Below, piece after piece: positions 27,305 through 62,966 of a stretch of DNA of 64,000 nt. The number at the start of each line of letters is the position of its first letter. The first letter of the stretch is position 1. This DNA comes from Trueperaceae bacterium (lineage in GTDB: Bacteria; Deinococcota; Deinococci; Deinococcales; Trueperaceae): contig CP070651.1 in the NCBI GenBank assembly GCA_020354625.1, positions 4,139,952 to 4,203,951 on the forward strand, in the 5' to 3' direction. Under the pieces are notes generated by a model. It was not told where the DNA came from, searched no databases, and saw only the letters and a list, made by a program, of their open reading frames with translations. Made by a program: the position numbers and the translations under genes.

Positions 27305-27748
27305 TCAGTTCGCAACCGGTAAGCCGGCGTCGACCCAGGCGGTAAAGCCCCCCGAGAGGTTCTTGACGTTGGCATACCCGAGCGACTTGAGGTAGAGCAG
27401 GGCGTAGTTGCCGCGTGTGCCCTTGGCGCAGTAGACGATGATCGGCTCGTTGACATCGCCGGGCAAAGCGTCCACGTTCGTCGCCAACTCGGTCACCGGG
27501 ATGAGCATGGCGCCTGGGATGTAGCCCTTTTCATCCCACTCGTTCTGGTTGCGCACGTCGATGACGAAGGGATCGATGGCGTCGATCTGGTTCATGGCGG
27601 TCTCGGGTGAGATCTGCAGCCAGCCTTGTTGACTCGCCTCGGCAATGACTTGGGCCATCACATCGGAGGCTGGAGTGATGGTCGGTACCTGGGCAACAGC
27701 GATCGAGGTGACGAGAAATGCGGACAGCAAGACGATGAACCGTTTCAT
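27305..27748 (-). CDS. Secreted rhodanese-like sulfurtransferase
   Basis: 147 residues with a Sec signal peptide (FIVLLSAFLVTSIAVAQ), so exported. One rhodanese domain: VIDVRNQNEWDEKGYIPGAMLIP and the active-site loop CAKGTRG with the catalytic cysteine. It probably accepts or delivers sulfane sulfur outside the membrane. It is the last gene of the molybdoenzyme operon, which supports polysulfide or thiosulfate as the substrate. It lies 37 bases after the NrfD gene. Confidence 0.9.
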   Translation of the reverse strand: MKRFIVLLSAFLVTSIAVAQVPTITPASDVMAQVIAEASQQGWLQISPETAMNQIDAIDPFVIDVRNQNEWDEKGYIPGAMLIPVTELATNVDALPGDVNEPIIVYCAKGTRGNYALLYLKSLGYANVKNLSGGFTAWVDAGLPVAN

Positions 27749-27785: not shown

Positions 27786-28577
27786 CTACAATCCGAACGG
27801 TTGGAACTGACCGACCTCGACGATGAGCGTGCGGGCCAGTGCGGCCCCGGCGAAGGCGGCGAGACCCGCCAGCGCCGGAAAGCGCCTGAGGAGCGCTACA
27901 GCCGAGAGCATGAGCCCGAGGCCGACGAGAAATAGCCAGCCGGCGTGTTCCCAGAAGTGAACGAGTGCCTGGCGTGCTTCGAAGCCTCCTACCGCCAACC
28001 CCACCAGGTAGAGCCCGCCCAGGAATACGCTCGAGAGGCTCGCGGCCAAAAACCAGGGCTTGACCCAAGCCCAGCGGAGCAAGAGCACGCCGCCGAGTAC
28101 GATCACCAAACTCGTGACCGGTACAAAAGCGAGCAAAAGCGGGGTCCACAAGGGCCTGGCGTTGTTGGCTGCGAGCAGCAGGCCGGGATAGAGCAACGTG
28201 ATGGTCGCGGTCATCAGCAACAGGGTGGCCCAGAAGCGCCGTGGGCCCCATCCTAAGGCGATCAACGCCGAGGCCGCAGCGGAGCCGGTGAGCCCCCAGG
28301 CGCCCCACCACATGGCCGAGCCGGGGTGAAAGCCTAGGAAAAGCCAGATATGGGTCAGCCGGAAGCGGGCGGACGACTCGGCCCACAAGAGCAGGAGATC
28401 GAGCACGACGAGGATAAGTGCTACGAGCGCGTAGCGCCTGGCAGCCAGGTCCCGGCGGAAGGCGAGCACCGCCACCAGGAGCGCTGTCCCGCCGGCGAGC
28501 GCCACTACCAAGAAGTGGATCAGGGTGGGCCAGTGCCAGAAGGCGCCGCTGTTGGGCAGGCCGTAGAAGGTCGTCAT
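27786..28577 (-). CDS. NrfD/PsrC-type quinone-binding membrane anchor
   Basis: 263 residues with about eight hydrophobic helices and few charged loops. It anchors the Fe-S and molybdenum subunits and exchanges electrons with the quinone pool. Family-typical features are WHWPTLIHFLVVALAGGTALL near the start and HPGSAMWWGAWGLTGS. The ATG overlaps the stop of the Fe-S gene (ATGA). Confidence 0.85.
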   Translation of the reverse strand: MTTFYGLPNSGAFWHWPTLIHFLVVALAGGTALLVAVLAFRRDLAARRYALVALILVVLDLLLLWAESSARFRLTHIWLFLGFHPGSAMWWGAWGLTGSAAASALIALGWGPRRFWATLLLMTATITLLYPGLLLAANNARPLWTPLLLAFVPVTSLVIVLGGVLLLRWAWVKPWFLAASLSSVFLGGLYLVGLAVGGFEARQALVHFWEHAGWLFLVGLGLMLSAVALLRRFPALAGLAAFAGAALARTLIVEVGQFQPFGL

Positions 28578-29155
28578 GAGGCTACCTCCTCGAGATGGGG
28601 ACCGAACGCTGGGGGGGTATTGAGGTAGTAGAGTTTGGGCTTGGTACCTCGGTCGGCACGAAGAATGTCGATCCGTTCAGCCTCTCTAAGAGCGATCGAG
28701 ACGTCGCTGTCAGGATCGTCGAGATCGCCGAAGGTGCGGCAGAGCGTGGGGCAGGTTTCGACACAAGCCGGCAGGCGGCCTCCCTGGATACGATGTCGAC
28801 AGAAAGTACACTTGCCGACGTAGCCATCAGGGTGGAAAAAGCGGGCGTCGTAGGGGCAGGCCGCCACGCAAGCACCGCAGGCGATGCACTTCTCGGGATC
28901 GACCAGTACCAGTCCATCTTCACTTCGGTAGCTCGCACCAGTCGGGCAGACGGGGACGCAGGGGGGACGGTCACAGTGCATGCACTGCTCGGGCCGGTAC
29001 AGCACGGCGAGGTCGGGGAAGATCCCTTCCTCACGCATCCGAATCCAGAGCTGATGTTCGCCCGACGGCACTTCGTTCTCGAGTTTGCAGGCCACCGCAC
29101 AAGCGGCACAGCCGACACAGGCTGCGAGATCGATCGCCATGGCGTAGCGTGCCAT
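28574..29155 (-). CDS. Four-cluster [4Fe-4S] subunit (PsrB/DmsB type)
   Basis: 193 residues with four cysteine groups for four [4Fe-4S] clusters: CVGCAACAVACK, CMHCDRPPCVPVCP, CIACGACVAACP and CTFC...CVETCPTLC. It relays electrons between the molybdenum subunit and the NrfD anchor. There is no signal peptide; export would be by piggy-back on the Tat-signal partner. Overlaps on both sides (ATGA) show tight operon coupling. Confidence 0.95.
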   Translation of the reverse strand: MARYAMAIDLAACVGCAACAVACKLENEVPSGEHQLWIRMREEGIFPDLAVLYRPEQCMHCDRPPCVPVCPTGASYRSEDGLVLVDPEKCIACGACVAACPYDARFFHPDGYVGKCTFCRHRIQGGRLPACVETCPTLCRTFGDLDDPDSDVSIALREAERIDILRADRGTKPKLYYLNTPPAFGPHLEEVAS

Positions 29156-31473
29156 CAGATCCTCCTTTCACGCGCCAGCCTGGCGAGGTTCGGATGACGG
29201 GGCCTCGGCGCGCCAGGGATGAGCTTCACGAAGTTGTTGCGCAGGCCGGCTCCGCCTGAGATCGGGTCGAGGGTGTAGCGGGTCTGCAAGGCGTTGTCCG
29301 AGGCACCGCGCCCGTCAGCGATCGCGAGGCTCGAGCTCTTGTGGCCGAAACCGTGGACCAGATAGAGGCAATCTCTGCGAATGCGCTCTGTGGCGTACAC
29401 CTGAACCGGTCCTTCGCGCACGCCGTCCTGGTTCTCCAACCACACGTAGTCGCCGTTTGAAAGCCCCTGACGTTCTGCCTCAGCAACACTGACCCAGACG
29501 GCATTCTCACCGTGCATCTCCATCAGGATCCAGTTGTTCTGGGTGCGGGCGAAGGTGTGGACCGGACTCCTGCCGTAGAGGAGCCGGTAGTAGCCCTGGG
29601 GAACCTCTTCGGGCGGGGTGTAGACCGGCAGGGGATCGAGGCCGTTTTGGGCGAACGTCTCCGAATAGAGTTCGATCTTGCCTGAGGGGGTGCCGAATGG
29701 AGAACGGTTGCGCGCCTCCCAATCCTCGAGATAGGGCCGGCCCTTCTGGATGAGCGTGCCGACCTGTTTGGCCTGTTCCAAGCTCGAGCCGATGGCCGTG
29801 AGCCGCCGGTCGAGATACTCCTCGATGTCCTGCCATGCGAAGTAGGCTTCGAGCCCGAGCCGGATGCCCAGTTCGCGGGCGATCCACCAGCCGGGCTTGC
29901 TGTCCCACAAGGGCTCGATCGCCGGGGTGCGCAGCTCGATAAAGGGGGTCTTGTGGGCGATAGCGACAAGGTCGTCGTGCCGCTCGAGGTAGCTGGCCTC
30001 GGGCAGGATCACGTCGGCCCACATCACGTGCTCCATCGGCATGACGTCGATGGCCACGTAGAGGTCGAGCTCACGCAAGGCCTCTTTGGTCCGGGGCACG
30101 TTGGGGATGGAGTGGAACAGGTTGACCCCGTAGGCGATCAGACCCTTGATGGGGTAGGGTTCGCCGGTGATCATCGGCGGGATGAGCTCCTGGATCGCCG
30201 TGGTGCGGGCGAAGAACTTGCCCCGGTCGGCCGCCGGGCGGAAGTCGCTGTTGGACTCCTCAGTTGTGACCTCGGCGCCGCCGCAACCGCCGGCCGCGGG
30301 CTCGAGCACGAACGGGGGGTGGGGATAGGGTTCCAGGTAGGGGGGTTGGGCGATGTAGAAGCCGCCGGGGCGCCCGACATTACCGAGCAGGGCGTTGACG
30401 AGATACTGAGCTCGCATGCGTTGGGTATCGTCACCGTACCAGACGGTGTGCCGACCAGGAGGGATCACAGCCTCCGGGGCGTGGGCGGCCAGTTCTCGGG
30501 CCACGATGCGAATCGCCTCAGCCGGGAGATCGGTGATGGGCGCTGCCCACTCGGGGGTGAATTTTTTCACATGAAGGGCCAGCTCATCGAATCCCACGGC
30601 ATACCTATCCAGGTAGTCACGGTCGTACAGCTCCTCGTCCACCAGCACGTTGAGCCAGGCGAGCAAGAGCGCGGTATCGGTGCCCGGCCGGATCGGCAAC
30701 CAGCGGTCCGCTTTGGACGCCGCCGTCGAAAAGCGCGGGTCGACCACGACCAACTTGGCACCGCTCGCAAGCGCCAGCGAGAAGTCTTGGAGTTGGGTAT
30801 TGTGGGTGTCTTCGCCGATATGGTGGCCGATGAGGACGATGTAGCGGGTGTTCTCCCAGTCGACCGGCTCATGGCCACCCACCGGGCGGCCGAAAGTCCA
30901 TTGGCTCGCCGTCTCCCGTGGGGTGGTGCAGAGCGATACCGACGGCTTGGCGGCGTTGGGACTCCCCCAGGCACCGGGCAGGTACTCGACGAACCAACTG
31001 TCTCCTGAACAGTGTCCGAAAAAGGCCATCGACTCGCTGCCGTAGCGGTCCTTGATATCGAGCATATGGTCGGCTATGTAGTCGAGCGCCTCGTCCCAGC
31101 TCGCCGTGCGGTACTTGCCCTCACCGCGTGCGGTCCCTTCGACACGGATGAGCGGGTGCTTGAGCCTGTCGGGGTCGTAAACCTGGGCCACCGCACCCTG
31201 CCCGCGTGGGCAGAGCCTACCGCGCGATTTGGGGTTGCCCTGGTAGCCCTCAACCTTGAACACCTTGCCGCCGGCGACGTGCGCGGTGATACCGCACTTC
31301 CAGAAACAGTTCTCGCAGATCGAATAGCTCTGCGTCACCCCTGTTGCGTACCAGGGCGCAGGAACGCGGGCCAACGGATTGGGCAGGCTCGAGGCCCCAA
31401 CCTGCTCGCCGAGCGCCAGCGCACCCACCGAGGCAGCGGATAGCTTGAGAAACTCCCTACGCCGCAACTTCAT
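29155..31473 (-). CDS. Molybdopterin oxidoreductase, PsrA/PhsA-like
   Basis: 772 residues with a Tat signal (RRREFLKLSAAS, residues 4-15). An Fe-S site is formed by C53, C56, C60 and C88 (CENCFWKC...LCPRG). The molybdenum ligand is probably C182 in SVSLCTTPRE, as in polysulfide or thiosulfate reductases. Length and layout match the PsrA/PhsA group of the complex iron-sulfur molybdoenzymes. Substrate is inferred from the neighbours (rhodanese, TorD chaperone). Start at 31473 follows a perfect AGGAGG. It may work as a reductase or, in an aerobe, as an oxidase. Confidence 0.9.
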   Translation of the reverse strand: MKLRRREFLKLSAASVGALALGEQVGASSLPNPLARVPAPWYATGVTQSYSICENCFWKCGITAHVAGGKVFKVEGYQGNPKSRGRLCPRGQGAVAQVYDPDRLKHPLIRVEGTARGEGKYRTASWDEALDYIADHMLDIKDRYGSESMAFFGHCSGDSWFVEYLPGAWGSPNAAKPSVSLCTTPRETASQWTFGRPVGGHEPVDWENTRYIVLIGHHIGEDTHNTQLQDFSLALASGAKLVVVDPRFSTAASKADRWLPIRPGTDTALLLAWLNVLVDEELYDRDYLDRYAVGFDELALHVKKFTPEWAAPITDLPAEAIRIVARELAAHAPEAVIPPGRHTVWYGDDTQRMRAQYLVNALLGNVGRPGGFYIAQPPYLEPYPHPPFVLEPAAGGCGGAEVTTEESNSDFRPAADRGKFFARTTAIQELIPPMITGEPYPIKGLIAYGVNLFHSIPNVPRTKEALRELDLYVAIDVMPMEHVMWADVILPEASYLERHDDLVAIAHKTPFIELRTPAIEPLWDSKPGWWIARELGIRLGLEAYFAWQDIEEYLDRRLTAIGSSLEQAKQVGTLIQKGRPYLEDWEARNRSPFGTPSGKIELYSETFAQNGLDPLPVYTPPEEVPQGYYRLLYGRSPVHTFARTQNNWILMEMHGENAVWVSVAEAERQGLSNGDYVWLENQDGVREGPVQVYATERIRRDCLYLVHGFGHKSSSLAIADGRGASDNALQTRYTLDPISGGAGLRNNFVKLIPGAPRPRHPNLARLARERRI

Positions 31474-32065
31474 GCCTTACCTCCTGAAAAGCATCTCGTA
31501 GGAAGCGACCGAGTCGACCATAGAACCCGCTCCGATCTCGCTCCGAGACGATTTCTGCGTAACATTCGAACCAAGGGAGCAAAAAGCGCTCTCCAAGTAC
31601 AGCAGCTTCGCGGTCCCGATCGCCGGCCAATAATAAGAGGCCGGCTTCGGCCACCAGCGCCAGATGGTCGGGCAGTTCGCTCCAGCTTCGCTCTACGACC
31701 AAAGCGTTACGAGCGAGAAAGGTCAAGAGTTCTCTCGTGCTCGGCCCGAGCAACGCTCCATCCAGGGCATAGCCCGTATAGGGCGGCGCCGGGAGGCCGC
31801 CGGGATTGGAAACGAACAGCTCCACATAACTCGCTCGGATGACATCCCAGTCGAAGGTTGATGGCAGAGTCTGTTCGAAGCCGAGCAAATCCGCTAGCTG
31901 AGAGGTCAGTGCGGCAAACCGGCCCGTGGCGATATCGGTTTCGAGAAGGTCTGTGGGCGGCTGGAAGATCGCCGCCGTAAGTTGAAAGATCGGCCCGAGC
32001 AAGTCTTTTCGAGAACAGCCAGGAGGTTCTTCGGCTTCCTCATTGTCTGCGGTTGGCGTGACCAT
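31457..32065 (-). CDS. TorD-family molybdoenzyme chaperone
   Basis: 202-residue all-helical cytosolic protein, first gene of the operon. The segment AFCQ-like YVELFVSNPGGLPAPPYTGYAL resembles the TorD/DmsD motif E-LF-...P--PYES. Such chaperones bind the Tat signal of the molybdenum subunit until cofactor insertion. Its 3' end overlaps the enzyme gene by 17 bases. The promoter region holds TATACCCC-type palindromes. Confidence 0.8.
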   Translation of the reverse strand: MVTPTADNEEAEEPPGCSRKDLLGPIFQLTAAIFQPPTDLLETDIATGRFAALTSQLADLLGFEQTLPSTFDWDVIRASYVELFVSNPGGLPAPPYTGYALDGALLGPSTRELLTFLARNALVVERSWSELPDHLALVAEAGLLLLAGDRDREAAVLGERFLLPWFECYAEIVSERDRSGFYGRLGRFLRDAFQEVRHEVAA

Positions 32066-32080
32066 GATGCAACGTCCTCT

Positions 32081-32169
32081 CTATACCCTAAATCTAGTCC
32101 TGTTCCGCAACCCGCGTTAGGGATATTTGTCCCGGTTTATCTTTTTATACCCCATAGGGATATAAAAAG
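32081..32169. promoter_or_regulatory. TATACCCC palindrome and half-site before torD-like gene
   Basis: A near-perfect palindrome is centred at 32155 (TATACCCCATAGGGATATA, with longer CTTTTTATA arms at 32141-32149 and 32161-32169). A half-site TATACCC follows at 32086-32092, nearer to the gene. The G/C-tract dyad resembles CsoR/CstR-family operators. Related palindromes occur at 32251 and 61172. Confidence 0.55.
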
Positions 32170-32250: not shown

Positions 32251-32269
32251 AATACCTATATGGGGTATT
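32251..32269. promoter_or_regulatory. TATACCCC-type palindrome before hypA
   Basis: AATACCTATATGGGGTATT has arms AATACC/GGTATT and lies about 75 bases before hypA. A possible -10 (TATGCT, 32294-32299) follows. Its likeness to the site at 32155 suggests that one regulator controls both divergent units. Confidence 0.5.
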
Positions 32270-32341: not shown

Positions 32342-32689
32342 ATGCATGAACTAAGCATCGCCAAAAACATCATCGAAATCGCCGAACAACACGCTCGACA
32401 AGAGGGGGCTGCTGCCATTACCAAAGTGGCGCTGCAGATCGGAACGCTCTCCGGTGTAGTGCCCGAAGCGCTCGAGTTCGCCTTCGAAGCAGCCAGGGTA
32501 GGTACGATGGCTGCCAGTGCCGAACTAGAGATGGAAATCGTACCGCTGATCTGTTCCTGCGGCGATTGCAAGCTCGAGTTTACCGTCGAAGACCGCCACG
32601 GAATCGCCCTCTGTCCGAAATGCGGGAAGCCGAGCAGCGACATCCGCCGCGGCCGGGAGTTGGCCGTACACTCTCTTGAAGTAGTATAG
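32342..32689 (+). CDS. hypA: Nickel-insertion protein HypA
   Basis: 115 residues with the family N terminus MHELSIAKNIIEIAEQ (His2 binds nickel) and a zinc site from two cysteine pairs (C-GDC and CPKC). It delivers nickel with HypB to NiFe hydrogenase or urease. It opens a hypA-hypB-hypF set. No hydrogenase genes, hypC, hypD or hypE are in the window. Confidence 0.95.
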   Translation: MHELSIAKNIIEIAEQHARQEGAAAITKVALQIGTLSGVVPEALEFAFEAARVGTMAASAELEMEIVPLICSCGDCKLEFTVEDRHGIALCPKCGKPSSDIRRGRELAVHSLEVV

Positions 32690-32703: not shown

Positions 32704-33420
32704 GTGGGCGTGGCTGAGGTGCGCACCATCGGACTGAGCGTCCTCACTGATAAGAACGAGAGTCGCGGTCGTACCATCGAAGTAGAAAAGGGCGTTTTGA
32801 GCCGCAATCAAGAGCTGGCCGACGAGCTCCGAAAGCGGTTTGGGGTCCACGGAATCTTGGCGCTCAACTTCGTCTCTTCCCCCGGATCGGGCAAGACGAC
32901 TCTACTGGCGCGAACCTTCACCGACATGCCGGATGTGCGTGCCGGAGTGATCGTGGGCGACCTGGCTACCGACAACGACGCCACCACCCTCAGGGCCAGC
33001 GGCGCCGAGACGGTGCAGATCATGACCGGCGGGGTATGTCACCTCGAGGCCTCGATGGTCTCGAAAGCTGTAGCCCCTCTCCCGCTCGAGGAGCTCGATC
33101 TTGTGGCGATCGAGAACGTCGGCAACCTGGTCTGCCCGGCGGCGTTCGACCTCGGCGAGGATCTCCGGATAGTGATGCTCTCGGTAACCGAAGGGGAAGA
33201 CAAACCGCTCAAATACCCGACCATCTTCAAAAGCGCCGACGTGGTAATCCTCACCAAGACCGATCTCGCCGAGGCCGTCGGCTTCGACCGCTCAGCAGCA
33301 CTCGAGAACCTCCGTTTGACCGCCCCTGGGGCGACTGTTTTCGAGGTATCCGCCCGCAGCGGTGAGGGGTTGAGTGACTGGTACGACTACCTGGCAAACC
33401 GTCTTGGTCGAGCCCAGTAA
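32704..33420 (+). CDS. hypB: Hydrogenase nickel GTPase HypB
   Basis: 238 residues, SIMIBI-class GTPase. The P-loop is SSPGSGKTTLL, the switch regions are GDLATDNDA and CHLEASM (metal-binding Cys-His), and the base motif is TKTD. The poly-histidine N terminus of some HypBs is absent. The GTG at 32704 is three bases after GGGAGG; the GTG at 32710 is an equally good alternative. It overlaps the start of hypF by 47 bases. Confidence 0.95.
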   Translation: MGVAEVRTIGLSVLTDKNESRGRTIEVEKGVLSRNQELADELRKRFGVHGILALNFVSSPGSGKTTLLARTFTDMPDVRAGVIVGDLATDNDATTLRASGAETVQIMTGGVCHLEASMVSKAVAPLPLEELDLVAIENVGNLVCPAAFDLGEDLRIVMLSVTEGEDKPLKYPTIFKSADVVILTKTDLAEAVGFDRSAALENLRLTAPGATVFEVSARSGEGLSDWYDYLANRLGRAQ

Positions 33421-35689
33421 AGAACCTTGCACCATCACGCTGCGGGTGAGGGGCGTGGTCCAGGGGGTCGGTTTCAGGCCCTTCATCTACCGGCTCGCCC
33501 TGCAGTATGGGTTGAGCGGCTGGGTTCTTAACGACGTCGAAGGCGTGCTCATCGAAGCCGCCGGCTCAGAGGACGCCTTGGCAACCTTTACACGCGCCAT
33601 TCGAGACGAGGCCCCACCCGCTGCCCGAGTAGAGAGCGTCGAGGAGCTCGAGCGGTGCAATGGCGTCGAGTCTAGCGGTTTCACCATTCGCAAGAGTGAA
33701 CGCACGGAGGACATCACGACCCTGATCTCCCCCGACCTCACTATCTGCCCGGACTGCCTACGAGAGCTCTTCGATCCGCAGGACCCGCGCCACCTCTACC
33801 CCTACATCAACTGCACCAACTGTGGGCCCCGCTACTCGATCATTACGGCGCTGCCCTACGATCGCCCCCACACCACCATGGCGCCCTACCCGCTCTGCCG
33901 AGATTGTGCCCACGAGTATGGTGATCCCTTGAACCGGCGCTTCCACGCCCAACCGGTGGCCTGCCCCCGCTGCGGGCCGGGCTACCGGTACCTCGACGCC
34001 GAAGGCACGCTGCTGGCACGCGAAGGCGCGGCCATTGCGCGGGCGGCACAAGCCCTCTGTGGCAGTCACATCCTCGCTATCAAGGGGCTGGGAGGCTACC
34101 ACCTCGCCTGCGACGCCACCGACGCGGCAGCGGTGCAGTCCTTGCGCGAACGCAAGTTTCGCAAAGAAAAACCCTTTGCCCTCATGGCCAAAGATCTTGC
34201 CACCGTAGAGCAGATCGCCAGCTTGGAGCCGGAAGCGCGGGAGGTGCTCGAGTCGGTGGCCCGCCCGATCGTACTGCTCCCCAAGGGGGGAAAGCATCTC
34301 CCTGACGGACTCGCCCCAGAGAACGCCGAGCTGGGAGTGATGCTGCCCTATACGCCACTACACCACCTGCTGTTCGCAGCTGGTGCGCCCCCTTTGCTGG
34401 TGATGACCAGCGCCAACCGCTCTTCCGAGCCGATCGCCTACCGAGACGAAGATGCCTTGGAACGGCTACCTGGCATCGCTGATGGCTTCCTGGTCGGCGA
34501 GCGGCCCATCGCCCGGCGGATAGACGATTCGGTGGTCGCCATCATGGACGGCTCCCCCAGCATGTTCCGCCGCGCCCGCGGGTATGCGCCGGCGCCCGTG
34601 CTCTTCAACAAACGGCTCGACGGACCGCTGCTGGGGCTCGGGGGTGGCCTCAAAAACGCCATCACCCTGGCGACCGGCGGCTATGCGTTCGTCAGCCAGC
34701 ACATCGGCGATCTCGACCATTTCGACGCCTTCGTAGCCTTTCAGGAGACCGTACACGACCTCACCACCATGTATGGCATCGAACTCGGGCAGACCACCGT
34801 TGTCCACGACCTCCACCCCGACTACCCCTCGAGCCGTTTTGCGGAGACGCTCCCCGGTGAGAAGCACGCGGCGCAACATCACGAGGCCCATATCGCCTCG
34901 GTGCTGGCAGAGCGAGATGCCTGGGACGTACCGGTGCTCGGCTTCAGCTTCGACGGGGCGGGCCTCGGTAACGACGGCAGCATCTGGGGCGGCGAGGTAT
35001 TCCACGGAACGCTCGAACAGGGCCTTCGCCGCGTCGCCCACCTAAGACAGGCCTACTTGCCCGGAGGCGACGCCGCAGCGCGCAACCCGCAGCAGGCAGC
35101 GATCGGCTTCTTGATAGAGCTCGACGCGTCGACCTGGCGGCCTTACTTGCCCGAAAGGCTTTCCAGGCGAGCATCGGGGCTGATCGAGAGCGGCCTCAAC
35201 ACCCCACTGACCAGCAGCATCGGCAGGCTGTTCGACACCGTAGCGGCGCTCACCGGCTTCGAGCGCAGCACGACCTTCGAGGGACAGGCCGCCGTGGCGC
35301 TCGAGGCGCTGGCGCGCAGCGCCACCGGGGACCACGGCAGCTACCCCTTGCCTTTCGACGGTCACACCTGGGACTACCGTCCGCTGCTCGAGGAGCTGCT
35401 CACCGACCGGCGGGCCGGCGAGCCGGCCGCGGTCATGGCGAAGCGCTTTCACCGGGCGCTCGCCGGGGCCGTGGCACAAGCGGCCTGTCACCTGAGCAGA
35501 CAACACGAGGTGGCTGCCGTCGCCCTATCAGGCGGCGTGTGGCAGAACAAGCTCCTGCACCGGCTGACGCTCGAGGCGCTCCGACAAGACGGTTTCACCG
35601 TCTGGTGGAACCGCACCGTTCCACCGGGGGATGGGGGGCTCTCCCTCGGACAGGTAGCGCTGGCAAGCGCGCGGAAGGAGATGGCATGA
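33374..35689 (+). CDS. hypF: Carbamoyltransferase HypF
   Basis: 771 residues with all parts of HypF: acylphosphatase-like RVRGVVQGVGFRPFIYRLA, zinc-binding CPDC...CTNC and CRDC...CPRC, a YrdC-like domain, and a Kae1-like C-terminal domain with VVHDLHPDYPSSRFA and QHHEAHIASV. It makes the thiocarbamate used for the cyanide ligands of NiFe hydrogenase, so its presence implies such an enzyme elsewhere. GTG start with GAGGGG upstream. Confidence 0.95.
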   Translation: MTGTTTWQTVLVEPSKEPCTITLRVRGVVQGVGFRPFIYRLALQYGLSGWVLNDVEGVLIEAAGSEDALATFTRAIRDEAPPAARVESVEELERCNGVESSGFTIRKSERTEDITTLISPDLTICPDCLRELFDPQDPRHLYPYINCTNCGPRYSIITALPYDRPHTTMAPYPLCRDCAHEYGDPLNRRFHAQPVACPRCGPGYRYLDAEGTLLAREGAAIARAAQALCGSHILAIKGLGGYHLACDATDAAAVQSLRERKFRKEKPFALMAKDLATVEQIASLEPEAREVLESVARPIVLLPKGGKHLPDGLAPENAELGVMLPYTPLHHLLFAAGAPPLLVMTSANRSSEPIAYRDEDALERLPGIADGFLVGERPIARRIDDSVVAIMDGSPSMFRRARGYAPAPVLFNKRLDGPLLGLGGGLKNAITLATGGYAFVSQHIGDLDHFDAFVAFQETVHDLTTMYGIELGQTTVVHDLHPDYPSSRFAETLPGEKHAAQHHEAHIASVLAERDAWDVPVLGFSFDGAGLGNDGSIWGGEVFHGTLEQGLRRVAHLRQAYLPGGDAAARNPQQAAIGFLIELDASTWRPYLPERLSRRASGLIESGLNTPLTSSIGRLFDTVAALTGFERSTTFEGQAAVALEALARSATGDHGSYPLPFDGHTWDYRPLLEELLTDRRAGEPAAVMAKRFHRALAGAVAQAACHLSRQHEVAAVALSGGVWQNKLLHRLTLEALRQDGFTVWWNRTVPPGDGGLSLGQVALASARKEMA

Positions 35690-59549: not shown

Positions 59550-61097
59550 TTACACCCCACCCACGTTTCGCTCGAGCACGTCCCGCCACACGCGCCGCAC
59601 CCAGCTCTTGGCCATCGGTGGCACATCCAGCAACTCGAAGTCGAGCCCTGCCGACTCGATATCCTCCATCAAGCGCCGCAAGGTCATGGCAGCACTGAGA
59701 TCGATTCGCCCCAGACCACCGAGGTGGAAGTGAACCGTCTGGACCTCAGGATGGCTGACCAGCAGGTCGGTAAAGGCTTCTTCCAGCTTGGCAGCCGATG
59801 CGAACCAGAGCACGCCGAGCGGCCGGAAGTGGAGCGTAGTTCCTTCAAGACGGTGCTCTAACACGAGTTGCTGTTCGCGCCTTAGGTGCTGGGCGATAGC
59901 CAACCCAACCCCGATGATGACGGCCACATCGATGCGTGGCGCGAGGATGAGTGTCAAGACGAAGGTAACCCAGCCGATATACGCCTGAGGCCGGGAGAGT
60001 TGCCGCAGCCTCACCAACTCACGCAACTTGATGAGGTTCAGTACTGCAGAAACGACGATCGCTGCCAGGATCGCCTTGGGTAGCGCGGAGAGCACCCCGG
60101 TAAAAGGCAGAAAGGCGAGGATCACCAGCCCGGTAACGGCGCCGCTCCAACGCGTCTTGGCCCCCGCCATTCGGTTGACCGAACTGCGTGCAAACGACCC
60201 ACCCACCGGGAAGGCAGAAAACATGCCGGCCGCGACATTGGACACCCCCTGGCTGATGAACTCCCGGTTGGCATCCCACTTTGCCCGGTCCTGGGTGGCG
60301 TAGGTCCTCGAAATCGAAGCGGTGTCGGCAAATCCCACCAGCGCGATGATGAGGCCGCCGATGAGCAGGCTCGGAAAGTCGCCCCAGGGCAACACAAGGT
60401 TGAGGCGGGGCAGGCCGGCCGGAATGTCACCGACGACGACTCCGTCATAACCGATCAGCAGCTGATAACCGATGCCGATGCCCGCTGCCAGCAGCACGCC
60501 GGGAAAGAGCGGGTGGAAACGGCGCCCCAAGAGCACCACCGCAACCGTCATGATCGCGAGACCGACAGCACTCGGATTCCACAGGTCGGGGCGGGCAAGC
60601 GCACGCAAAGCACTGATCATGACACCGCCTCCACCCGGCGCGACCCCCAAAACAGCCGGGAGTTGCGAGGCGAGGATGAGGATGGCCGCAGCGGAGGTGA
60701 AGCCCATCAGTACGGGTTGGGACAGCAGATAGGCCACCGCACCGAACCTGAAAAAGCCGATAAAGATGCGGATGGAACCCACCACCAGCGCGAGCAAGGC
60801 GGCGAGACCGAGGTACTCGCTACTACCCGGGACGGCGAGCTGGCTGAGCGTTCCAAAGACCAACAGTGAGGTAAGCGCCACCGGACCGGTCTGCAAATAG
60901 GGCGAAGACACGAAGAAGGCAGCGGCCAAAGAGGGCAGCGCCACCGCGTACAGCCCGGTGTAAGCCGGCATCCCGGCCAACTCGGCGTAGGCCAGCGACT
61001 GGGGGATGGCCACCAGCGCCACGCTGATACCGGCCAACAGGTCCCCAAACCGGATTCCTGATAAGCGCCCGTTTCGCCCTGGTCTTCCGTCTACCAC
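59550..61097 (-). CDS. SulP-family anion transporter with STAS domain
   Basis: 515 residues, GTG start at 61097. About eleven helices (IPQSLAYAELAGMPAYTGLYAVALP, QTGPVALTSLLV, NVAAGMFSAFPVGGSFARSSVN), then a STAS domain from about 410. It imports sulfate or another inorganic anion. Conserved GLYA and the GSFARSSVN motif are intact. It is divergent from the second molybdoenzyme system and shares its upstream region, with a TATACCCC palindrome about 75 bases before the start. Confidence 0.92.
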   Translation of the reverse strand: MVDGRPGRNGRLSGIRFGDLLAGISVALVAIPQSLAYAELAGMPAYTGLYAVALPSLAAAFFVSSPYLQTGPVALTSLLVFGTLSQLAVPGSSEYLGLAALLALVVGSIRIFIGFFRFGAVAYLLSQPVLMGFTSAAAILILASQLPAVLGVAPGGGGVMISALRALARPDLWNPSAVGLAIMTVAVVLLGRRFHPLFPGVLLAAGIGIGYQLLIGYDGVVVGDIPAGLPRLNLVLPWGDFPSLLIGGLIIALVGFADTASISRTYATQDRAKWDANREFISQGVSNVAAGMFSAFPVGGSFARSSVNRMAGAKTRWSGAVTGLVILAFLPFTGVLSALPKAILAAIVVSAVLNLIKLRELVRLRQLSRPQAYIGWVTFVLTLILAPRIDVAVIIGVGLAIAQHLRREQQLVLEHRLEGTTLHFRPLGVLWFASAAKLEEAFTDLLVSHPEVQTVHFHLGGLGRIDLSAAMTLRRLMEDIESAGLDFELLDVPPMAKSWVRRVWRDVLERNVGGV

Positions 61098-61171: not shown

Positions 61172-61190
61172 TATACCCCTATAGGGTATA
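61172..61190. promoter_or_regulatory. TATACCCC palindrome between sulP and second molybdoenzyme operon
   Basis: TATACCCCTATAGGGTATA, nearly perfect, extended by C and G on the outside. Lies about 75-93 bases before the sulP start, next to a possible sulP -10 (TATATT on the minus strand near 61161). Matches the palindromes before the torD-like gene and hypA. Confidence 0.6.
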
Positions 61191-61344: not shown

Positions 61345-61392
61345 ATGACCATCAAGTGCGCGTCCCGATACCGGTTTTTCTCCAAAGGCTGA
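61345..61392 (+). CDS. Candidate 15-residue leader peptide
   Basis: ATG after AGGAG, encoding MTIKCASRYRFFSKG and stopping two bases before the GTG of the next gene. One cysteine is at residue 5. It may couple translation or sense cysteine supply; or it may be chance. Confidence 0.35.
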   Translation: MTIKCASRYRFFSKG

Positions 61393-61394
61393 CC

Positions 61395-62966
61395 GTGCAG
61401 CTCATCGACCTCGAGCCCGAGTTCAACCCTGACCCCCAGTGGATCAAAGTCCTCGACCAGCGGCGCTGCATCGGTTGCCACGCCTGTACCGTGGCCTGCA
61501 AGAGCGAAAACGAGGTGCCCTTAGACGTCACCCGCACCTACGTCAAACAGGTCGAGACCGGCCGCTTCCCCGACACGCGGCGGCACTTCCAGATCACGCG
61601 CTGCAACCAGTGCGCCGACCCGCCCTGCGTGCACGCCTGCCCTGTCACCGCCATGTACCAGCGCAGCGACGGCATCGTCGACTTCGACAAAGACATCTGT
61701 ATCGGCTGCAAGGCCTGCATCGCCGCCTGCCCCTACGATGCAATTTTCATCAACCCAGACGACCACAGCGCCGAGAAGTGCAACTTCTGCACCCACAAGC
61801 TCGATAAGGGGCTCGAGCCCGCCTGCGTCACCGTCTGTCCAGCCGAGGCCATCCTCATCGGTGATCTCAACGACCCCACCACCAAGGTGGCCCAACTGGT
61901 CGGCCGTGAGAGCGCCCAGGTGCGCCGCCCGGAAAAGCACACCGGTCCCAAGCTCTACTACCTCGGCGTCGACCAGGCCACCTTGGACCCGCTGGCGGCC
62001 CAGACCCCTGAAGGGGGGCTCTTTCAGTGGAGCGAGCAGAAGAACGATCTCTCTAACGGCTACGTGGCGAGCGGCATGCCGGCCGGCTGGCGCAGCAACA
62101 ACGCCGCCGCCTCGCTGCTGGCTTATGACATCAACCACAAACGCCCCTGGGACTTCCGGGTCAGCCTCTACACCTGGACCAAGTCGATCAGCGCCGGCGC
62201 CATGTTGTTCGCCAACCTGGCCGTGCTCTTGGGCCTGCTCCCCTTGGAGAGCGTCTTGGCTCAGTGGCTGGCCCCCCTTACCGCCGGCCTGTTCCTGGCC
62301 GCGACCGGCCTCTTGCTCATCTGGGACCTGACCCACCCCTGGCGCTTCTACACCATCTTCACCCGGCCTCAGTGGCGCTCGTGGCTCACAAAGGGCGCCT
62401 TCATCATCGCCGCCTACGGCGCTCTGATCGCCCTGTGGCTGCTCGCCTCGCTCCTGGGCGCTCAGGGCCTGCAGCGGCTATTGATCTGGCCGCTGCTGCC
62501 GGCCGCCCTGATGACCGCTGTCTACACGGCTTTTCTGTTCGCGCAGAGCAAGGCCCGCGACCTGTGGCAAAACCCCCTTCTCCCCTTCCACTTCGGCTTG
62601 CAGGCGCTTTTGGCCGGCGCGGCCATCCTGGGCTTGCTCGCCGCTTTTACGGGTAGCGGCCTCGTGACGGCGGCGCTGTGGACGGTGGCCGGCTCGGCGC
62701 TCCTCCACCTGCTCATCACCTGGGGGGAGATCGCGCTACCCAGCGTGACGGCCCACGCCGCACTCGCCGAACGTCACATGACCGAGGGGGTCTTCAGGAA
62801 TTTCTTCTGGGGCGGTTTACTGGGCGGTGGGATCCTGCCGGTGCTGTTCGTGGCACTGCTCCCCACTCCGGTTGGCTTAGTGCTCGCCTCTCTCGCCGCG
62901 CTGGCAGGCTTGCTCGCTTTTGAACACGCCTACGTCCAAGCGGGCCAGGCCGTCCCTCTGGCGTAA
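61395..62966 (+). CDS. Fused Fe-S / NrfD membrane subunit of a molybdoenzyme
   Basis: 523 residues from the GTG at 61395, preceded by AAAGG at six bases; the longer frame from 61356 is less likely. Residues ~20-205 are a four-cluster ferredoxin (CIGCHACTVACK, CNQCADPPCVHACP, CIGCKACIAACP, CNFC...CVTVCP). From about 260 follow eight or nine helices of the DmsC/NrfD kind. Fusion of these two subunits is not the usual arrangement. It passes electrons between the molybdoenzyme and quinones. Confidence 0.9.
   Translation: MQLIDLEPEFNPDPQWIKVLDQRRCIGCHACTVACKSENEVPLDVTRTYVKQVETGRFPDTRRHFQITRCNQCADPPCVHACPVTAMYQRSDGIVDFDKDICIGCKACIAACPYDAIFINPDDHSAEKCNFCTHKLDKGLEPACVTVCPAEAILIGDLNDPTTKVAQLVGRESAQVRRPEKHTGPKLYYLGVDQATLDPLAAQTPEGGLFQWSEQKNDLSNGYVASGMPAGWRSNNAAASLLAYDINHKRPWDFRVSLYTWTKSISAGAMLFANLAVLLGLLPLESVLAQWLAPLTAGLFLAATGLLLIWDLTHPWRFYTIFTRPQWRSWLTKGAFIIAAYGALIALWLLASLLGAQGLQRLLIWPLLPAALMTAVYTAFLFAQSKARDLWQNPLLPFHFGLQALLAGAAILGLLAAFTGSGLVTAALWTVAGSALLHLLITWGEIALPSVTAHAALAERHMTEGVFRNFFWGGLLGGGILPVLFVALLPTPVGLVLASLAALAGLLAFEHAYVQAGQAVPLA

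Follow-up and report, generated by a model that had tools for sequence, protein, structure and literature searches.

Palindromes between the psr and hyp genes

An inverted repeat lies between an operon for a PsrABC-type reductase and the hypABF genes in a 64-kb stretch of a bacterial genome (C1:4139952-4203951; hereafter the window, to which positions without a prefix refer unless otherwise stated). What does it do there, and which protein might recognize it? The dyad, CTTTTTATACCCCATAGGGATATAAAAAG at 32141-32169, has 12 of 14 symmetric pairs, including perfect 9-bp A/T-rich outer arms. Pairing of 12 of 14 at this 29-nt length occurs at only five places in the 64-kb window, while first-order Markov resamples gave zero to two. 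Hence the dyad flagged in the initial annotation is real. Its core 17-mer, ATACCCCATAGGGATAT at 32147-32163, is separated from the torD start codon by 81 bp and is a predicted operator of torD-psrABC-rhodanese. The annotation had also placed similar dyads at 32251 and 61172, and both are present within one base. The former, ATACCTATATGGGGTAT (32252-32268), is a second palindrome that agrees with the consensus frame given below at 11 of 12 positions; a gap of 73 bp divides it from the start codon of hypA, and it is a predicted hypABF operator. The latter, ATACCCCTATAGGGTAT (61173-61189), is a perfect-frame palindrome. Searching the window for TATACCCCTATAGGGTATA with up to three mismatches returned only 32146 and 61172, with 0.00 in shuffles.

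The operon to the left of the first dyad runs on the minus strand. It begins with a TorD/DmsD-like chaperone gene (31457-32065; PF02613, 1.3e-12, with the DmsD/TorD models below cut-off) and continues with a PsrA/PhsA-type molybdopterin subunit (29155-31473; PF00384), a PsrB-type 4Fe-4S subunit (28574-29155; PF13247, 7e-27), a PsrC-type membrane subunit of the NrfD_2 kind (27786-28577; PF14589, 1.4e-61) and, at its end, a rhodanese-domain protein (27305-27748; PF00581, 5.8e-20). The best solved match of PsrA, and a close one, is 2VPW (E=0), the thiosulfate/polysulfide reductase of T. thermophilus. On the plus strand to the right are hypA (32342-32689; PF01155, 8.8e-35), hypB (32704-33420; PF02492, 4.7e-22) and hypF (33374-35689; PF22521, PF07503, PF17788). 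The intergenic region between them is 276 bp long, holds both sites and has 41% GC compared with 62% for the window. Between torD and the first dyad (32084-32125), we also observed extra half-sites, TATACCC near 32082 and GGGATAT at 32120. A promoter scan made no call overlapping the 32147 or 32252 site.

The third palindrome separates a minus-strand gene for a SulP family permease with a STAS domain (59550-61097; PF00916, 3.4e-78), whose start is 75 bp from the site, from a plus-strand gene fusing a 4Fe-4S subunit to an NrfD-type membrane subunit (61356-62966; PF13247 and PF03916). Beyond the window, the fusion gene is followed by a molybdopterin subunit gene and a TorD-like gene. A site of this type also lies between the orthologs of the SulP and fusion genes in one relative (G012).

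Palindromes precede sulfur genes throughout the genome

The initial annotation had called for a genome-wide motif scan. We ran pattern searches of the genome (4.29 Mb, one contig) with the consensus frame ATACCC-N5-GGGTAT, using the reversed frame as a control and simple longest-ORF calls as genes. Four perfect sites were found and none for the control. Allowing one mismatch, we found 13 frame sites (the 4 perfect ones and 9 others) and 11 control sites. This raw count shows no excess, so the number of one-mismatch sites proves nothing. Placement does: 10 of the 13 frame sites precede genes, compared with 0 of the 11 control sites, all of which fall within predicted coding sequence (Fisher p=1.5e-4). 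The sites are not randomly placed. For 7 of the 10 gene-preceding sites the gap to the start codon is 60-82 bp. A looser pattern, TACCC-N3..6-GGGWA, gave counts equal to its control and was uninformative. Sites at genome positions 115565 (inside prfB), 951322, 2173750, 1421656 and 3842978 were judged to be chance occurrences.

What do the palindromes precede? Besides the window sites (C1:4172098 and C1:4172203, equal to 32147 and 32252, and C1:4201124, equal to 61173), we found one at C1:1124845 before a gene for PDO (protein disulfide oxidoreductase, thioredoxin-like; TIGR02187 above cut-off) that is followed by a CsoR-family gene roughly 100 codons long. Others precede two YeeE/YedE-type sulfur transporters (C1:815017), SQR (C1:4255931; the best solved matches are mitochondrial SQR, E 1.7e-121), TrxB (C1:583060) and a redoxin (C1:2261670). 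The palindrome covers the yeeE start codon both here (L009:1500-1516) and in a relative, G013 (L269:2828-2844), which suggests that the yeeE transcript is leaderless, with the operator over its start.

Two further sites lie before genes of other kinds. An MnmG-like gene follows the site at C1:1481126-1481142, and its ortholog in another relative (G002) is also preceded by a site. The palindrome here is thus found in two genera of the family, with dnaA divergent from mnmG; one would not expect a sulfur sensor to target a tRNA modification gene. The site at C1:4266415 precedes a small membrane protein gene with a paralog near SQR. Neither paralog has a Pfam match (L063:15715-16092 and L064:5064-5432; one lies near SQR and the other behind a perfect-frame palindrome).

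The clearest [NiFe] hydrogenase identified carries beta and gamma subunits of the sulfhydrogenase type. We searched the hydrogenase operon itself and found no palindrome. Its large subunit is split over separate frames (C1:3013631-3014770), either through an error in sequencing or because the gene is broken.

A CsoR-family gene without the copper histidine

Could a regulator be named from the same genome? The initial annotation had suggested looking for a CsoR-family gene with the same palindrome, and such a gene was found. The genome has two PF02583 genes. The candidate (C1:1125606-1125905; 80.8 bits against a cut-off of 22.8) is the gene behind PDO, itself downstream of the palindrome ATACCCCATAGGGGTAT. 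Alignment with solved family members shows two cysteines kept, 29 residues apart, and a Tyr in place of the His ligand of copper CsoR. The protein therefore lacks the Cys-His-Cys ligand set of copper CsoR, having Cys-Tyr-Cys, and its gene lies in a PDO-cstR operon and not with copA/copZ. The cstR-operon site has the features of the CsoR/RcnR operator class: it is a pseudo-palindrome with TAC..GTA ends and C/G runs, near a family gene. Over 17 bases, the 32147 site differs from it at one, and a match this close is expected about 0.03 times per genome. In a different family of the order, moreover, a site next to cstR matches the 32147 site at all 17 positions.

The second family gene encodes a Cys-His-His protein and lies in copZ-csoR-copA (L019 10076-10306 and upstream), preceded by a GC-rich palindrome, ATCCACCCCAGGGGGGGGTGGAT. 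No ATACCC-type site was found in the 20 kb that surround this operon. Since copZ-csoR-copA carries a different site, we set aside the copper/nickel CsoR as the regulator.

Palindromes in relatives and other bacteria

The order probably belongs to Deinococcota, given its V-type ATP synthase genes, an RF2 whose nearest matches are T. thermophilus release factors, and a PsrA closest to 2VPW. We searched 61 of its genomes for the 17-mer, allowing two mismatches, and obtained 45 matches, against 4 for the control. The relatives' sites precede PDO-cstR, a gene of persulfide-dioxygenase type that joins MBL and rhodanese domains, yeeE/yedE, and rhodanese, TrxB and peroxiredoxin genes. The family includes 28 genomes with a close regulator, of which 18 have the motif, and 9 without one, none of which has it (Fisher p=0.001, ignoring relatedness). 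Among 35 regulators of the order that were examined, 33 are Cys-Tyr-Cys, one is Cys-Phe-Cys and one is Cys-His-His.

Is the palindrome conserved before psr and hyp? Many relatives have psr and hyp orthologs. We checked those of PsrA and HypF, including one genome (G015) in which psr and hyp lie side by side, and found no palindrome, which makes the predicted control of these genes a local addition in this genome. With the phylogenetic footprint negative, the support for both sites comes from this genome alone, from the presence of two sites within 276 bp and their likeness to the cstR site and not from conservation. Our search of this genome gave no close copy of the MBL-rhodanese protein encoded directly behind several of the relatives' sites (best match, 33% identity); we speculate that sulfane sulfur may therefore have a reductive outlet here instead.

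Scanning named genomes for the exact 19-mer gave 80 readable stretches among the matches listed. A CsoR-family gene is present in 58 of these listed stretches, in 49 of them within 200 bp, and the neighboring regulators, again among the matches listed, are mostly Cys-His-Cys proteins from many phyla; two Streptococcus genes encode Cys-Asn-Cys. The palindrome thus represents a CsoR-family operator class common to copper and sulfur sensors. The interpretation in the initial annotation is largely supported, and neither outcome that it had listed as refuting (a motif common at random positions, or a genome with no CsoR-family gene) occurred. However, because most listed exact matches neighbor Cys-His-Cys regulators, the motif alone cannot separate copper CsoR from CstR, and the choice between copper and sulfur rests on the regulator and the targets.

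A persulfide-responsive repressor is the probable regulator

We propose that 32147 and 32252 are operators of the CstR-like CsoR-family repressor encoded at C1:1125606-1125905, released by persulfide or polysulfide, and we put the probability of this reading at roughly three in four. In the absence of the signal, the reduced repressor would occupy a site about 60-80 bp before each start codon, blocking the two divergent operons, torD-psrABC-rhodanese and hypABF. As persulfide or polysulfide accumulates, the two cysteines of the repressor would react and the protein would let go of the DNA. Levels of SQR, YeeE/YedE, PDO, TrxB, redoxin, SulP/Mo-NrfD, PsrABC and the Hyp proteins would then rise. 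The DNA itself shows the motif and where it lies, a regulator gene that lacks the copper histidine and, in relatives, the link between motif and sulfur genes; binding, repression and signal, and with them this block-and-release mechanism, are inferred by analogy with CstR. A persulfide or sulfane-sulfur signal, which had been put forward on the basis of the window, fits the predicted regulon (SQR, yeeE/yedE and PDO here; persulfide-dioxygenase-type and rhodanese genes in relatives). Since the hydrogenase has sulfhydrogenase-type beta and gamma subunits, a polysulfide signal would also give hyp a reason to respond. Weighing against the proposal are the lack of a promoter call at the two sites, the absence of a palindrome from the hydrogenase operon, and the failure of a related sulfur regulator, TTHA1953 of T. 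thermophilus, to respond to NaHS in vitro (PMC10318464).

Might the psr/hyp sites instead be chance look-alikes in an A/T-rich intergenic region, with true operators only before the core sulfur genes? The low GC content of the region, the lack of conservation before psr and hyp in relatives and the finding that one-mismatch sites are no commoner genome-wide than the control would all agree with this, and each of the two sites does carry one frame mismatch, which counts against the operator reading. However, the 276-bp region has two such sites, each with the typical spacing to a start codon, and 32147 is nearly identical to the cstR-operon site and fully identical to the site beside cstR in another family. 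We consider chance resemblance unlikely. A transcription terminator or other RNA structure is very improbable. The near-perfect inverted repeat with its long arms at 32141-32169 might invite that interpretation, but the dyad is flanked by divergent start regions, a place where transcripts are not expected to end, a terminator scan called 32120-32133 instead, and copies of the dyad core are found in front of unrelated genes and, in other genomes, next to cstR genes.

Perhaps the sites are bound by the other CsoR-family protein of the genome, a metal sensor, in response to nickel or copper? HypA and HypB function in nickel handling, and hypAB is adjacent to a site; the palindrome class adjoins Cys-His-Cys regulators in many phyla among the matches listed, and in one relative (G044) a similar site lies between a Cys-His-His csoR gene and copA. 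Against this, the Cys-His-His gene here sits in copZ-csoR-copA behind its own GC-rich palindrome with no ATACCC-type site in the surrounding 20 kb, and there is no metal exporter among the targets. We regard a metal sensor at these sites as quite unlikely and favor the CstR-like repressor.

The two palindromes thereby lead to a predicted, testable regulon of a CsoR-family sulfur sensor outside the Firmicutes; it extends over the genome, and a regulator, a consensus and some 10 targets can be named for it. The target set (psr, hyp, trxB, mnmG) appears new, as does the clade of Cys-Tyr-Cys regulators; a limited literature search found no precedent for a CsoR-family sulfur sensor controlling polysulfide reductase and hydrogenase maturation. 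A tentative extension is that sulfane-sulfur sensors of the Cys-Tyr-Cys type are a line of their own, apart from firmicute CstR, and that in this lineage the sensor has become connected to both ends of sulfur metabolism. Its targets would then span the oxidation of sulfide and the reduction of polysulfide, the maturation of a [NiFe] hydrogenase of sulfhydrogenase type, the reduction of thioredoxin and, through mnmG, the modification of tRNA.

Comparison with known CsoR-family systems

The targets of CstR include SQR, rhodanese, persulfide-dioxygenase-type and sulfur-transport genes (PMC10318464). Like CstR of Staphylococcus, Enterococcus and Streptococcus, the regulator here is a small CsoR-family protein with a two-cysteine pair and no copper histidine, and its sites precede SQR and yeeE/yedE in this genome and persulfide-dioxygenase-type and rhodanese genes in relatives. 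It differs in having Tyr at the histidine position, where the Streptococcus rows have Asn, and its predicted regulon is scattered over the genome and includes psr, hyp, trxB and mnmG. In our tree, which has few columns and some long branches, the Cys-Tyr-Cys clade is supported (97/87) and lies apart from both the Cys-Phe-Cys clade and the Streptococcus rows.

TTHA1953 of T. thermophilus HB8 represses Sox genes, binds TACNNTACNNNNGTANNGTA and does not respond to NaHS in vitro (PMC10318464). It resembles the present regulator in being a CsoR-like protein with two cysteines and with sulfur genes scattered over the genome (PMC10318464), and it is probably from the same phylum. However, TACNNTACNNNNGTANNGTA lacks C/G runs, whereas in the palindromes of this genome TAC and GTA are spaced by nine bases and C/G runs are present. 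We take the Cys-Phe-Cys clade to be of the TTHA1953 kind: the apparent orthologs of TTHA1953 in the order are Cys-Phe-Cys proteins, in a clade separate from the Cys-Tyr-Cys regulator, and we found no TTHA1953 motif beside them. Given the Sox genes that TTHA1953 represses and the sequence that it binds, we conclude that the present system is not its copy. In three f4 genomes, a palindrome lies before a peroxiredoxin gene and the only close CsoR-like protein is Cys-Phe-Cys and TTHA1953-like; the operator of the TTHA1953-like protein in these genomes may differ from the published one.

Copper CsoR (Cys-His-Cys) belongs to the same family, and the exact 19-mer adjoins such genes in many bacteria. 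Unlike it, the regulator proposed here has no histidine ligand, and the site at the copper operon of this genome is a different one, rich in GC. Hence a copper CsoR and a sulfur CsoR can be told apart within one genome by their sensor residues and their operators.
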